Shown here piece by piece: positions 19,857 through 28,900 of a stretch of DNA of 64,000 nucleotides (its first letter is position 1; the number at the start of each line of letters is the position of its first letter). The stretch comes from Owenia fusiformis (lineage: Eukaryota; Annelida; Polychaeta; Sabellida; Oweniidae), in assembly GCA_903813345.2 (NCBI GenBank), contig CAIIXF020000001.1, positions 3,536,001 through 3,600,000 of the forward strand, read 5' to 3'. The notes below the pieces were generated by a model. It saw only the letters and a list, made by a program, of their open reading frames with translations, searched no databases and was not told where the DNA came from. Both the position numbers and the translations under genes were made by a program.

Positions 19857-19923
19857 ATGGGGATAAAAATGAAGGTTATATTTATTTATTTGGTCCTGAT
19901 GCTGGCGGTTGGATTTACAACAG
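19857..19923 (+). CDS. Signal-peptide exon of the lectin/trefoil receptor
   Basis: ATG at 19857 followed by 22 codons: MGIKMK, then a hydrophobic core VIFIYLVLMLAV and a small-residue end GFTTG. The exon ends in phase 1 at ACAACAG|GTTTGA, and the next exon (AG at 20232-20233) restores frame. A typical secretory signal peptide with cleavage likely near residues 20-23. Confidence 0.75.
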
Positions 19924-22900
19924 GTTTGAGCAACATGATATAATTTTTGAAATGAGAAACGTGACATCACTGAATGGCATGGTAAACTACTTAAGCAAAA
20001 ACAATTCTGAATGAAATAAATATTATACATCTTTAAAGTATAAAAAACAATAGATGGCAAAGCACTTCAAAAATATGATTTCAATATAATTTGTCATTTA
20101 TAAGATTTATATTGCGTCATGCTGCTAGCGGGTGTCAGTGAGGGTCTAAATGTGAAAGGGTGTCATCATGTGTCCTGACATAAAATATAATTATATTGTT
20201 TCGAACAATTATTAATCAATACAATATTTTCAGGAGCGGATAATGGGCATACATTTATTGGACCATTCACTGTGAAGGACGGAAACAATAGAGATCTGTT
20301 TTTTAAAATATACTACACCAAGGATAAACGTAATTCACTTTCTTGGTATAATGCAAAAGCATATTGCGAAGGAGAAAATGGTTATTTAGCAAAGCTCGAT
20401 TCTTCTCAAGCAAATGATGGAATAAAAAAGGCATTAGATGAACAAATAATAAGCTTACCTAATTTAAGTGCGAGCAAAGGTTTTTGGATTGGATTAATTC
20501 AAGATAGAAATGTAAGACAAAGTAGCAGTTATTACTGGATTGATGGTGAGCGTCTTTTGCATTTACACTGTGATATAGTAACTAAGTAATAGTTCATACA
20601 TTTTTACACGTCACTAGTAACTAAGTAATAGTTCATACATTTATAGTTCATACATTTTTACACTAGTAACTAAGTAATAGTTCATACACTTTTACACTAG
20701 TAATTAAGTAATAGTTCATACATTTTTACACTTCTTATCTTTAATATAATTTTACATGTTTTAAATTGAATAAACGTTGCATTCGCATAAATATTTCCAG
20801 AATTCAATTTTCAAAGCCTTGAATGCACAAGAAGCACGCAGTTGTCATGTAGAAGGGAGGCCACTGCGGGTGGAGAAAATACCAATGAAGAATCTTGCAG
20901 AAAGAATATGTGTTGTTGGACCGGGACAGAATGTGTATTCCCAAAAGGAACACCAAATAGTAAAAATATATACCTAGTACTACATTATTAAAAAACAAAT
21001 TAAAAAATATTATACTCCCTCTTTTGAAACCCTTCCTATTTGAAATAATATTAACGTAATATGACATTTCTATATGGATCTTTCAAAACAGTAGGTTATA
21101 CAGGGTGGGCCAAAAAACCCAATACCCAACTTTGAATCAGGATAAAAATAGCTATGTTCAATATTATACATTGATTTATATATCATTTTAAAGGTAATCC
21201 ATTTTCAAACAATTTGGTATATAACACTATGTCATGAAATCAATATTAAAGTTTTATTATACTTATTTGGGAGGCCGGGTTGCTTTTTAAGGTCTCCAGA
21301 TTTTAGGGAGAAAAAAGTAAATCTGCGGAATAATGTTAATTTTTTATTTATAGAATGTCATTTTGTTAGGTGAATACATGGTTCTATACGTGCATAGTGT
21401 GACTAAACGTTTTGTTTATGAATTTCAGTGTTGTTTACTATCATTAAGCACTCAAAAGGGGTCTGTTAAAAGACATTAAACATATATGTGACGAGGATTT
21501 TATTTTGTAACAAGACATTGCCTCGTACCATAGATCAAAGGAGACATTGGCATTCCTTTGTGAATAAGGTGTCAATTTGGTTGATCTTGATGCTTGACCA
21601 CCCACTAGCCCCGATGCTAATGTGGTTGATTGCCATACATGGAGCAATCTCAAGGAAATGGTACAATCACAAGCATCCAATAAACAGCATTGATGAGCTG
21701 AAACAGAATCCTAAAGTGCTAAAATGAATTGCAACAGAAATCTCTCAATAAGGCTATTGATAGATTGCACTACCACTTGAAGCTTATTGTTGACGCAGAG
21801 GGGGAAGGGGGGGGGGTGTATTGAGCAATTGTTAGAATTGGTTAAATAAATAAAGTGTAAAATGTTATTAAACAGCACTGCTATTTATAAACAATAAATA
21901 TAGTCACACAATGATGCAAATATCAATATCCAAGCATGTATTCACCTAACAAAAAATGATATTCTATAAATAAAAAATTAACATAATTCCTTAGATTTTG
22001 CTATTTTCCCCCTAATATCTGGAGACCTTAAATAGCAACCCGGCCTCCCAAATAAGTATAATAAAACTTTACTATTGATTTCATGACATATTGTTATATA
22101 CCAAATTGTTTGAAAATGTATAACCTTTAAAATGATATGTGAGTCAATGTACCATATTGAATGTAACTATTTTTATCCTGATTTGAAGTTGGGTATTGTT
22201 CTTTTTGGCCCACCCTGTATATTCATATATTGTGCCCAACAGTACGACAAGACAATTCATGTGAAGTAGAAGATAGATTCAGAGACGCTTGCAAAGGTAA
22301 CAATGGCAACCCTACAACATGCAGAGCAGATAAAGACTGTTGCTACCGGCGACCAAATGACAACCAGTATCCAACATGTTTCTACAAACATAGTTTACCA
22401 GGTCCACTGGGTGAGTCTTAAATTAAATCTATGATACATAGCATATACTTGTATAGTATAATATTGTAATCCCTTTGTGAAATAAGTTATCCGAAAAAAC
22501 TTTAAAAACTAAACTCCATGTTTAAACACTACAAAAGTCATCTCTTGTCAGATAAACTGTAAGAATACCTTTTTCAGTTCACGACCTCAGGAGTAAAAAC
22601 TCCAAGAGACCGATTAAAAATGAATTATAACCAAGAAAACGGTATCAAAAAGATGAATAACTATTTCAATTTTGAATGTTCCATAAAACATCATCACTGT
22701 CATTCCGACTGAAGTATCCAATTTTTAACATTTTAGGTTATACCGACTGGGGCATAGGTAAAGGAGGTACGGACTCAAATGATAGACGCTGTGGGATTCT
22801 ATGGCAAGATTTTAGTTGGCAATGGGATCACCAGAAGTGTCAAAGCAACAATGGAAACAATGTAGGATTCATCTGCCAATATCGTAAGTTGTTTCACCTT

Positions 22901-25900
22901 ATGTTGTAGTATACTACTATTTGTTTGGACATCGTATCATTAGAATTTAAAATGTATTATGATTTTAACACATTACATTCGAACATAGACTGGCTCACAA
23001 GTGAGTCAGTATTTTACATTGTACAATGTTATAAAGTTATAAACTATACGATATAAACTATATATATGCTACAAATTATAAACAATATATCTTTTAGGCT
23101 ATAAACTATACATTCCGATAAATTATAAACCATTTCAGCTGTCATGCCTTCCACTATCTCACCTTCTACAACAATGGAGCAAACCACAGCAGCGACAACA
23201 ATTACAACACAATCAACGACTACAACCTCTACAACAATTGAAACAACACAGTCACCAATGACGACAACCATAGCAACAACAATACCAATACAAATAGTGG
23301 ATACCACATTAAGTGACACAACAACAATTGACACAACAGTAGCTGAAACAACAATAGTCGACACAACAATGGTTGACACCACATTGGCTGAGACGACAAT
23401 AGTCGATACAACAATGGCTGACACCACATTTGCTGACACGACAATAGTTGACACGACCATAGATGAGTCAACAGAGGAACCATCTACAACTCCACTTGTG
23501 ATTTCATACAGCACAACAAGACATTCTGTTTCTACCAGCCAAGAGTTTGAGTTGACCACAGCCCGTGAAATAGCTGGCACCACTACTACGGACCGAAGTT
23601 CTGCTGTTCCTCCATCAACAACTGTTAGTATTGCCCCATCATCGTCAGTGCTAACATCATCATCTACAGCATCATCAACGGCTACAGTAGCATCAACAAC
23701 TTCATTACCATCATCATCAACAGCTGCAGCAGAATCATCAACATCAGCTACACAAATGTCTTCTACAATAGGTGAGTTTATTTTGGTTTCTATTGAAGAC
23801 ATGAGATCCTCCAAATTTTATGATTTCACTTTTTCAGAACACACGAGGGATACCAGTAAAGACAAGCAACTAAACAATAGCAACCAAATTCTTGTTATTC
23901 TTGTTCAAGTTCCATACTTGCAGGTCCAATTCAAATCAAAGTTGTTTAAAATTATACACAACATCACATCCATCGTGTCTTGGATAAACCAACAGTCGAT
24001 AGACAAAATTATTTGTAACATCCTGGTTGCAACACTTTGTGCACTGATTCTGTGATGGTATTGGGGTTGTCATTAGATGACACTCTAAGAATAATGTGTA
24101 TGAAAGCAATTCCAAAATAACTGGCTATATTTGGAAGATAATTGGGGAGGAAAGAAAATGTTTTATTCAAAAAGCCCCCTGAGGTACTGAATTGGTAAAG
24201 CGTGTACTATACACTTACTTATACATGCATAAGGCTGATGAAAATGACAAAATGATGGATGTAACACAAGAAAACTTTATTTCCATACATTTTATAATGT
24301 TGTATTTCCGGGCCTCAGATCAAGAGGGTCCCATCATTAAAAAAATGGACGGTTGGGTCACAATTTACATCAGTCAAAATATGTATCAATTGATTCGAAT
24401 CATGTTTTTGATAAAGAAAAATAATTATGTTAACCATGCATTTCCAATATTTTAGATTTAGCATCAATTAAAAGGGAAAGAGAGGAATCTGATAGAGCTG
24501 GTAAAATTGGTAAGTATGAAAACAATGCAAGTGAACAGAATTTAAAACTAAGAGAAATAGAAGGGACAACAGAGCGTTACTCAAATGTTACAAGAAACTT
24601 TTTTAGCAATCTACAGTCGGTGAATTTTAGAAGTGTTTTCAAAATTAACTACTGTCGTACGTATTATTTTATATGTTCTGACAGACAACTTCAGTGAAAA
24701 TGTGTATTTATAAACTACATTAAATCCTCGCAAAACAATTAAATAAGAACATCTGATTAATTCTAATTTCCCCGCCCTCAAGCCACACGCGTTCATATAT
24801 TCTGAACGGCTCGGAATGTAGTTTTGAAATAACGTTTCTTGTTATGTTACACCCTATGCACATCTTGATTCACAAGGTTTCAGTTTCTTCAACTTGTGTT
24901 ATGACCATCTTGGAATTCGAAGATGCCCTATGCAGACGGAGTTTGATGTATACTGCGTCAGAATGAATTACATACTATTTTTACAATTTTATTGATATCA
25001 GGTGTCAACTACACATATATGAGTATATTTCAAATCAAAACAGCTAAGTTTAAGAAATATCGCAAATTTAAATTCAATAATGACCGCTCATTTCTGCCGC
25101 ACCAAATATTCCCCACAGGCTCCGTCTACATAGGGTGTATTATGTCAATCATTCGTCCATCTTTTTTCCACCATAATTGATATGCAAATGAAGTTAACAG
25201 TTCGATGAAAAATATGAACTTTTAAACGACTGTGTTTGTCTAATTTGATATCTAGCCCTACTATCACACCAAACTAGTTCTCACTACGTTCTCGAAAACG
25301 GGCTTCAACTGTATACGAACGGACTGGACCTACTAAGAACCGTTTGGGATCTATTTACAAACTTCATCGAACGTACTCGAACGGGTAGGTCCTCTTGAAC
25401 TTAGACAATGCTCGAAATGTTGTCGTGGTCGTCACGTTCTATTATTTGAACGAGTGACAACGTACTAACAACGAGCTGGACGTACTACGAACGGAACCGT
25501 CGTACTTCAATCATACTAGGGACGTTTTAACAACGAGTTGAACTGTCTGAGGACGTGTTGAGAACGAGGTAGAACTAAATGCAAACGGGATTAAACTGAT
25601 TAAGAACGTATTTAACACTGCTTATGAACGAGCTAGCAAAAATATAGCTATCACACCAAACAAGTTGCCACTGCGTTCTTCAAAACTGGTTTTAAACTGT
25701 GTGCGAACGGAATGAACGTAGCTGCAACTTTCTAAGGTCTATTTACGAACTTCATGAACGTTCTCAGACGGGAAGGTGATTTTAGAATTTTGAATCGATT
25801 CAAAATTCGATGGCGACCATACCGTTCTGTTATCAGGTCATGGTGACCTTCTAGACTAAGGGACGTTGCACATCGACCTGGTGCGACTTGAACGAACTGC

Positions 25901-28900
25901 GAATGAGATGGACGTATTGAAGACTGTTTATGAACGAAGTAGCTAATTATTTCAGACATATTTCCCGACCACAGCCAGATTAAGCCCGTTTTACGACTTT
26001 TTCGTAGGACTGGCAAGAACGGGTAAGAACTAGTTTGGTGTGATAGCAGGGTTAGTGAGATTACGATTTTTTGTACGTTTTTGTACGTGTACGTGGACGT
26101 GTAGAGTTATGGTCCTCTGTGGATTAGTTTAAAGGTATACGGAAAAATAATTGTAATTAGGTACCTGGAAAAGTGAATTGAGAGCGGGGTGGTAATCCCC
26201 GGGGTCGAAATATTACACGCTCACGTACAGGTTCCCTTAAAACGTGTAACTTTGCCTCCCTACTAGCTACAAAGACATAACTTGATACCAGCTAAATAGA
26301 TTTCTTAGTTTCTGAAATGTTTTGTGTAGAAAAGCAGGCAAATGCAATAGACTTTTTATTTGAGTCTATATGTTATAATTGAGTGAGGAAGGATACTACT
26401 GTTATTAGCTTATAAGGGAGGTCGACCTTCACGTTTTAAGAGGACTTGTACGTAAACGTGTGAAATCATTGTCATCTAGGGATTAGTTCATAATACTACT
26501 CGTTCAAGTTCTCTAAAAACGTTTAGCGTGAGCTTTAATTTTAACGTCACTTACAGATCTATACGTTGATACATTTACCAAACCAGTCTGACGTAATTTA
26601 TCTACTCCCTGAATCTGAAATGTCGTAGATCCACACCGGAATAGCCTGACAACGGTAAAATCAGATATCGTTGTCACAAATGGCGGACATAACCGTCGCT
26701 TCAAGACTTTAATCACTTGGTCCTCATTTCATGGGATTTTATCGTCGCTAATCCTGTGCATGCATTAAGCTCTTGTGATGATGTATCATATGAAATCCCA
26801 ATTTCGATCAAATTGGGTCGTGAATCGCAACAATATAGCGTCTTCGATATCGTCAATGACAACGGAATCTGAATTTGAAATATTTACAAAGACAACGGCA
26901 TATGGTAATACAGTGTCTGTTGTCCCGTATCTCATTTTGATCGGTTAAATTAAAGACTTTATTTCGATGGTAGAACATTATTAAGTGAATAATGAGTATA
27001 AAGACACTTTGGTTGATTGTTGTTCTAAAGTCTAGATGCTCTATTAAACATACAGTTCATGAAAATCTAATTGAAAATACGGTTATGTCCGCCATTTGTG
27101 ACAACGTTATCTGACTTTACCGTTGTCAGACTATTCCGGTGTGAGATCTACGACGTCGAACTGGGCCAGACGGGTTTGGTTAGGCGTACATTATCATTGA
27201 CGTGACGTGTTGACAAATCGAAATCCAGTAAAACTATGTTATTTGAATTTGTATACTTATTTATTGAATTTATTTGGATGCTATTGTATACTTTTCGGTT
27301 TGGAATTATACAGACATGATTATAGTACTATATAATAACACAACTAATAGCTAATACAAGAAAACACTGTGATTGTAAGGAAATTTAACTGTTTACTTAA
27401 TTTTTTTTAAAATCCAAGTTGTGAACTCAAATGCAAAATTATGTAATGTTTGTTGTAATGTTGTAGATGCTACACGCCATTCATTGTTGTTTGTTTGTAA
27501 GGCTGTCTTATCTGATACCATTCTTAATTTCTGTTACCAACTTTCTGAAAATATAAAATAAATAGTGATATAAATATGCTGAATATTATAATCAGTATGT
27601 GATTGATGTGTTAAGTTGTGGATGTTACAAAACGGAAAAATGACGTTGCATCCTTCAAACGCAGGGCTCCAGATATAACTGACGCATCAACAAGAGGGAA
27701 GTTGTTGATGACGGGAGCCGTGCGTCCGGAGGTTGTGATACTGTTGCTTTATGAAGAGGCTTACATTCAACCTGTTGTTTATACTTTTCTTCCATCTGCG
27801 ACATGAAATAGTGAAGAGTCCCGAACATCTTGTAAACAACCTCGGCTGCATCATCACTGATGTGGAGACCCTTCATATATGCCATGGCGTCACACATCTT
27901 TCCCATGTGCTCGGTGTTCCAAGGGGCGTCCAATCTGACTTGACGTTTTGCTCTCATGTTTTCCACCTCCTCTTTGGCTTCGTCGATGATGTCTTCTTGC
28001 TTGGGAATATTGTGTTCTCCATCAATGGCACCTGCCAGCTCGGCTCTCAATTGGCAGACAACGTGCATACGCTTCAGTTGTTCCCATACATAATCACGCA
28101 TGGCGGAGTCATCGTATGTTTCACCTTCTTCCGCTTGTTTTGTCTCAGCAAGGAGGCGTTTAAGAGTTGCCACCATTCCACTCTTGCTATCCCTTTTGAC
28201 TGGGCCACTCAAAGTTGCGGGGACAACCAAGAGCATCAGGGCCAGGGAAACAGTCACAATATTCATCTTGAAATCTGGAAAAAATGAACAATTATCAGTA
28301 CATCCTTGTTGCAATTGATGGATTGAGATCTACTGCAACTTTTGCTTTTTGTTTTTGCATAGAATGATGGAAAATTCAAATCTCAGACTGAAAACTTGAA
28401 AAAGTTGAGGTTACCCTTGATTATCCAATAAAATATAAAGAACTTATCTCGTTTTTTAAATTGATTTACTTGGAGTATTCGCAGCGAGAAACAATGCGAA
28501 GAGGTCAGAACAATTTATAATTCCAACTCCAAAACTCAACCCAAAACAGTTGAAACTTAGGTAAGTTAGATACAATTGAAAATCACAATTAAACTTGAAT
28601 ATTGCAACTTTCACTTTGAAAAATAAAATAAGGTTGAGTTTAAAACTTTTCATGTGCTTTTTAAGTTTGAAACTATTCAAGAGACTATTAAGGATACTAT
28701 AAAAAATACAAATTAGACCAAAATACAATGCTTTTTCTTGAAATGTTTATTATTTTGTATTTCTGAAGTGCGATACATTAATCATAAAATAATTGGTGCT
28801 CGTCAAAATTTTTTGAATAATTCTTACCTTGTTTGGTCAGACTCTCTCACTCCTATGGGAACTAAAAAGTGGTACCTTGTTGGTGGTAACCCAAGATTTT

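Follow-up and report, generated by a model that had tools for sequence, protein, structure and literature searches.

Two cysteine-rich symmetric exons, one encoding a divergent trefoil domain, in the intron that splits a C-type lectin domain of Owenia fusiformis

We describe a predicted gene of the annelid Owenia fusiformis in which the C-type lectin domain (CTLD) is divided between two exons, and the intron that divides it holds two further exons, one encoding a divergent trefoil domain and the other a six-cysteine module with the trefoil order of cysteines. The gene lies in a window of 64,000 nucleotides (contig CAIIXF020000001.1 of assembly GCA_903813345.2, positions 3,536,001 to 3,600,000, forward strand), and coordinates given below without a contig name refer to this window. 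In the reading that we favor, with a probability of roughly 0.6, a mucin-like C-type lectin gene, the product of which is secreted or membrane-anchored, gained the two 1-1 exons through exon shuffling, in the intron that divides its lectin domain. The original prediction made for this locus was partly confirmed, in that the arrangement is real but was slightly overstated, and the interpretation attached to it is partly supported.

Results

The gene model comprises seven exons on the + strand (19857-24055), with lengths of 67, 312, 159, 168, 147, 633 and 218 nt, separated by GT-AG introns that are all in phase 1. The encoded order is a signal peptide, the N-terminal half of the lectin domain, a cysteine-rich exon (a), a trefoil exon (b), the C-terminal half of the lectin domain, a Thr/Ser-rich exon and a hydrophobic tail. 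Exon 1 (19857-19923) carries the start codon and a signal-peptide-like start, MGIKMKVIFIYLVLMLAVGFTT, recognized by eye, and ends in phase 1. The lectin domain begins in exon n (20234-20545, 312 nt), which encodes ...FWIGL...YYWID(G), and is completed by exon c (22737-22883, 147 nt), which encodes (G)YTDWG...FICQY; both exons have the AG/GT borders, the coordinates and the lectin motifs originally described. Also as described, two further exons of the same strand lie between the lectin halves, exon a (20801-20959, 159 nt, donor gtaaaa) and exon b (22243-22410, 168 nt), and all four exons are 1-1. Downstream, a mucin-like Thr/Ser-rich exon (23139-23771), likewise 1-1, encodes 69 Thr and 36 Ser among 210 residues, and the last exon (23838-24055) encodes the C-terminal segment with a hydrophobic run, IICNILVATLCALIL, at its end, which by eye is a possible membrane anchor, followed by the stop codon. 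The 66-base intron that precedes the last exon is in frame and likewise open. The GC content of exons a and b is 0.42 and 0.43, respectively, compared with 0.26-0.32 in the flanking introns and 0.33 in exon n.

Because all introns are in phase 1, any subset of the inner exons preserves the reading frame, and the junction codons are sense codons for every exon pair, skipped or not. The predicted products are 458 residues long with no inner exon, 511 with exon a, 514 with exon b and 567 with both.

Repeats and a neighboring open reading frame were also seen by eye in the window. The Thr-rich exon at 23139-23771 contains near-tandem repeats of the TTIVDTTMADTT type, the copy number of which might differ among individuals, and the intron before exon a (20546-20800) contains short tandem copies resembling TAGTAACTAAGTAATAGTTCATACA. 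An open reading frame on the - strand (27655-28329), with no Pfam match at E<=0.1, has a signal-peptide-like start and dibasic sites, and perhaps encodes a secreted precursor.

When exons n and c are joined, the translation scores 45.9 bits against PF00059 (cut-off 22.6), so that in an HMM search of the spliced product the skipped form is the ordinary CTLD that had been anticipated; with both inner exons included, the score is 32.7 bits. In the genome scan, exon n matched PF00059 profile positions 2-64. One core cysteine, together with WIGL, lies in exon n and three lie in exon c, in alignment with four relatives, and the profile score above the curated cut-off, the four core cysteines and the WIGL motif place the domain in the PF00059 family. 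The closest solved relatives by sequence (10 distinct sequences, E<=0.01) include N-acetylglucosamine-specific lectins and the macrophage mannose receptor.

EPN/QPD-type and WND are the names of the motifs for calcium-dependent sugar binding in the long loop of these domains. In the present lectin, the EPN/QPD-type position reads GKGGTD, compared with EPS, EPN, EPR or QPN in all seven aligned relatives, and the WND position reads WDH, with WND retained in three of the seven. Here the long loop thus lacks the pairing of an EPN/QPD-type motif with WND that identifies a calcium-dependent sugar-binding C-type lectin. Classical calcium-dependent sugar binding appears unlikely in any isoform because the first motif is missing and the second is altered.

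Exon b encodes six cysteines with the spacing C-x9-C-x9-C-x5-CC-x11-CF. Alone, it scores 20.2 bits against the trefoil profile PF00088 (cut-off 21, E 5.6e-4). In the whole inserted protein, the match amounts to 17.2 bits (E 0.0048), that is, 3.8 below the cut-off, and two stretches, the second reported without its position, pass a very loose Trefoil limit of 10. The two best matches to solved structures (of 17 listed at E<=10) are both pS2/Trefoil factor 1 (TFF1) chains, weak at E 0.07 and 0.078, and exon b aligns to TFF1 cysteine for cysteine. A profile scan of the genome (498 Mb, 525 contigs) yielded at least 44 PF00088 matches at E<=0.001, among which both exons are absent. From 20 of these matches we made an own-genome trefoil profile, against which exon b scores 18.3 bits, a value reached by none of 2000 full and none of 2000 cysteine-fixed shuffles. 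When the same profile was run across the window interval, the top two hits were exon b (17.0 bits) and exon a (7.8 bits), followed by a hit of 2.2 bits. Single-sequence structure prediction of the isolated exons a and b gave poor models (pLDDT 52.5 and 57.9). We call exon b a divergent trefoil (P-type) domain, just below the Pfam cut-off and the only recognizable trefoil of the two, judging from its profile scores and cysteines. It resembles the PF00088 trefoils (TFF1/pS2) in its six cysteines and their order, but differs from them in its divergence and in its placement between the two halves of another domain.

Both inner exons had been predicted to encode CC...CF trefoils, which holds for exon b, with the qualification that it is divergent, but not for exon a, which ends in CC-x5-CVF and has no Pfam match of its own at E<=10. 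The cysteines of exon a are spaced C-x7-C-x15-C-x4-CC-x5-C, with a long C2-C3 loop, and no solved structure was matched at E<=10. Its score against the own-genome trefoil profile, 7.5 bits, was reached by 10 of 2000 full shuffles and by 49 of 2000 shuffles with fixed cysteines; in the interval scan exon a has 7.8 bits, and two other loci contain unrelated frames of 7.5 and 6.4 bits. Trefoil membership, taken as a PF00088 profile match with normal cysteine spacing, does not extend to exon a, which is trefoil-like in the order of its cysteines and in little beyond, and is marginal as a trefoil.

Exons a and b are not random sequence. A loose C-C-C-CC-C scan of open 1-1 exons in the 2,191-base interval between the lectin halves recovered exon a, exon b and a longer alternative start of exon b; comparable exons were found in none of 1000 dinucleotide shuffles of the interval, and no C-C-C-CC-C 1-1 exon was found on its antisense strand. 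This pattern was set after the exons had been seen, and the scan tests non-randomness rather than trefoil identity. From the stop rate in the non-transposon intron (0.092 per trinucleotide), the probability of an open frame is about 0.006 (52 codons) and about 0.005 (55 codons) for the two inner exons.

Exons a and b are separated by an intron of 1,283 bases that contains a transposon relic (21101-22217). The relic is flanked by TA and has long terminal inverted repeats, with arms of 225 nt at 90%; the genome match gives arms of about 350 nt at 85%. Judged from its ends by eye, the element is Tc1/mariner-like. Among 413 candidate copies, 40 were scored, of which 38, including the window copy, span at least 1,000 bases; the nearest other copies among those scored are 92-93% identical. 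Only 23 bases separate the TA of the element from exon b, and an influence of the transposon on splicing of this exon is speculation. The donor of exon a is the weakest of the six (60.7 vs 74.4-92.5), as scored with a generic vertebrate matrix that is not of this species; it is compatible with optional use of the exon, of which it is no evidence. The acceptor of exon b has 8 pyrimidines in 14 positions, the same as exons n and a.

To place the lectin intron, we turned to related genes of the same genome, in which at least 153 lectin matches were obtained (150 of 565 candidates scored). Sixteen regions were taken around partial-domain lectin matches, and the junctions of seven N-halves, from five regions, were read from DNA alone, the lectin halves being paired by order and distance. 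In four of the seven (L013, L015a, L016a and L016b), a phase-1 intron lies, as in the present gene, in the Gly after W-x-W-x-x, with both splice sites, and these four belong to one cluster at C1:45.04-45.08 Mb. An identical intron is not clear in the remaining three: in L014 the partner exon lies beyond the region examined, in L015b the junction is ambiguous and displaced by roughly one codon, and in L018 the intron occupies another position. The joined lectin halves of two of the four relatives score 59.6 and 61.2 bits, and the four are 22-27% identical to the lectin described here. The best-matching, L016b (pairwise E 3e-10, 24% identity), passes directly from the lectin into a Thr-rich tract, with ICEYVMPTTT where the present gene has ICQYPVMPST.

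The introns of the four relatives range from 132 to about 2,771 bases, and none contains a trefoil-like 1-1 exon by cysteine pattern. Because patterns that demand CC overlook trefoils that have no such pair (L023 has examples), the four introns were searched again with the trefoil profile, and nothing in them scored above 4.5 bits; the two control loci in this search match partly by construction, as one trefoil of each was used in the profile. Close copies of the gene were not found in its own genome, where exon b, the lectin and exon a strongly match themselves only, the next-best matches having E values of 0.68, 0.053 and 1.1, respectively.

An intron downstream of WIGL is described for fish antifreeze-protein-like and serum lectins (PMC514892). 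The present gene resembles those fish lectins and the C1:45 Mb cluster in having its lectin in at least two exons with an intron downstream of WIGL; four cluster genes share the phase-1 position and one shares the Thr-rich tail, but a trefoil-like exon is found in the intron here and in none of the four cluster genes tested. As symmetric exons in an intron that relatives possess without such exons (identical in four of the seven N-halves read), exons a and b fit the definition of 1-1 modules shuffled into an ancestral phase-1 intron. The lectin intron looks old and the inner exons look like newcomers, because the four relatives share the intron and have no trefoil-like exon in it. The proposed insertion point, between WIGL/W-x-D-G and the long-loop cysteines, is supported by this shared intron and by the intact skipped form.

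By coordinates, no trefoil match lies between the lectin matches of a single gene among at least 44 trefoil and at least 153 lectin matches in the genome. Other mosaic loci were encountered. On the - strand of C10:32406500-32416400 (locus L049) there are PAN (27.0 bits) and trefoil (41.8 bits) exons and lectin pieces, as well as sushi-like exons seen by eye; the lectin N-piece is below the cut-off (20.6 of 22.6 bits), and the pieces are candidates for a single gene. This locus (C10:32.41 Mb) is like the present one in combining lectin and trefoil pieces on one strand. However, the order there is PAN, lectin pieces and then the trefoil exon, with a likely lectin C-end (FPFICQE) preceding the trefoil, so that the arrangement is end to end. 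A copy of the same transposon, in the same orientation, lies upstream of the L049 trefoil exon, and transposon-borne capture of a trefoil exon was considered and set aside as coincidence; outside the element, the window and L049 share matches of 13-19 bases only. Elsewhere, a split C-type lectin domain on the - strand of C11:10881000-10890500 has a kringle exon (37.6 bits, cut-off 34.3) close by on its upstream side, and a trefoil exon array on the - strand of C6:30547853-30551820, in which the spacing is nearly always 296 bases and several scores are identical, looks like a recent tandem duplication.

Discussion

Modules that spread by exon shuffling are, as a rule, symmetric, and in extracellular proteins they usually lie one after another along the chain; the lectin loop in question is known to tolerate change. 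The simplest history of the present gene would be the shuffling of 1-1 exons into a lectin intron of old standing, with one domain nested in another as the outcome, and we rank this nested-domain reading, a variant of known exon shuffling, as the best explanation. An old phase-1 lectin intron would have received two symmetric 1-1 exons, a divergent trefoil (exon b) and a cysteine-rich module in trefoil order (exon a). With both exons spliced in, the 567-residue product would have two disulfide-rich modules attached where the long-loop region of the lectin begins; the lectin halves retain their own four cysteines and could close around the insert. As the lectin does not have the usual calcium/sugar motif, the most likely role would be recognition at a surface or in mucus, with the modules extending the customary binding face of the loop or taking its place. 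We infer the presence of both exons in the mature mRNA, the fold of the protein as drawn here and its role.

In a study of domain gain, symmetric-phase introns flanked 28 of the 49 middle gains that involved novel exons, and such intronic gains made up less than 10% of all domain gains (Buljan et al. 2010, PMC2926785). The present locus fits the symmetric-phase pattern of exon insertion into ancestral introns, but the receiving intron here cuts a single domain, and the gained modules are nested rather than adjacent. The open-access literature searched, including the accessible portions of PMC2926785, PMC10140915, PMC8878817, PMC8260672 and PMC514892, described no C-type lectin domain with a trefoil inside it, which is not proof of absence.

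Exons a and b could also be optional cassettes, giving a compact lectin (458 residues), forms with one module (511 or 514) and a full form (567) in a regulated switch. This reading refines the nested-domain explanation, and the estimates for the two overlap; we consider it possible, at odds clearly below even. Each combination has sense junction codons and stays in frame, and the skipped product is a normal lectin domain, but the same frame compatibility would be left behind by exon shuffling alone. The donor of exon a is the weakest of the six on the vertebrate matrix, and the transposon ends some 25 bases short of exon b, where it could interfere with a branch point or pyrimidine tract; against this, the matrix comes from other species, and the pyrimidine count of the exon b acceptor equals those of exons n and a. 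The ligand-binding switch that had been envisaged is weakened in its classical form because the EPN/QPD-type motif is missing from the lectin, but optional cassettes would fit the phase of the exons. Still more tentative is the possibility that the inclusion of zero, one or two disulfide-rich modules in the long loop acts as a regulated switch, so that the protein is either compact or presents an entirely different face for binding, and that the transposon by the exon b acceptor tunes the choice.

We consider it rather improbable that the two inner exons are relics, or cryptic exons that splicing usually passes over, perhaps with the transposon weakening exon b, and that the gene encodes a plain lectin. 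The degenerate character of exon a as a trefoil, its weak donor and the transposon adjoining the exon b acceptor would agree with such decay, but both frames are open, each exon has six cysteines, the AG/GT ends are intact, and none of the 1000 shuffles produced such exons. Far less probable are interleaved alternative transcripts, a lectin-mucin (signal, n, c, mucin) or a trefoil-mucin (signal, a, b, mucin), in which one domain would never lie inside the other: the junctions that these require are all in frame, and trefoil domains are known to be paired with mucin-like Thr tracts, but each form demands coordinated skipping of two separate exons, and the n-a, a-b and b-c junction codons are equally good. 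A separate nested transcript of the inner exons, with its own start, is the least credible, as no supporting point was found, the contiguous open frames of exons a and b have no upstream Met (a separate upstream exon would still be possible), and the acceptors and donors of both are in the phase of the host gene.

If the nested-domain explanation is true, an intron that cuts a fold would open that fold to nested insertion by exon shuffling, and the gene would offer a model from nature for attaching disulfide modules to the loops of lectins. If the two exons are also optional, splicing would control a change in the binding face of a single domain.
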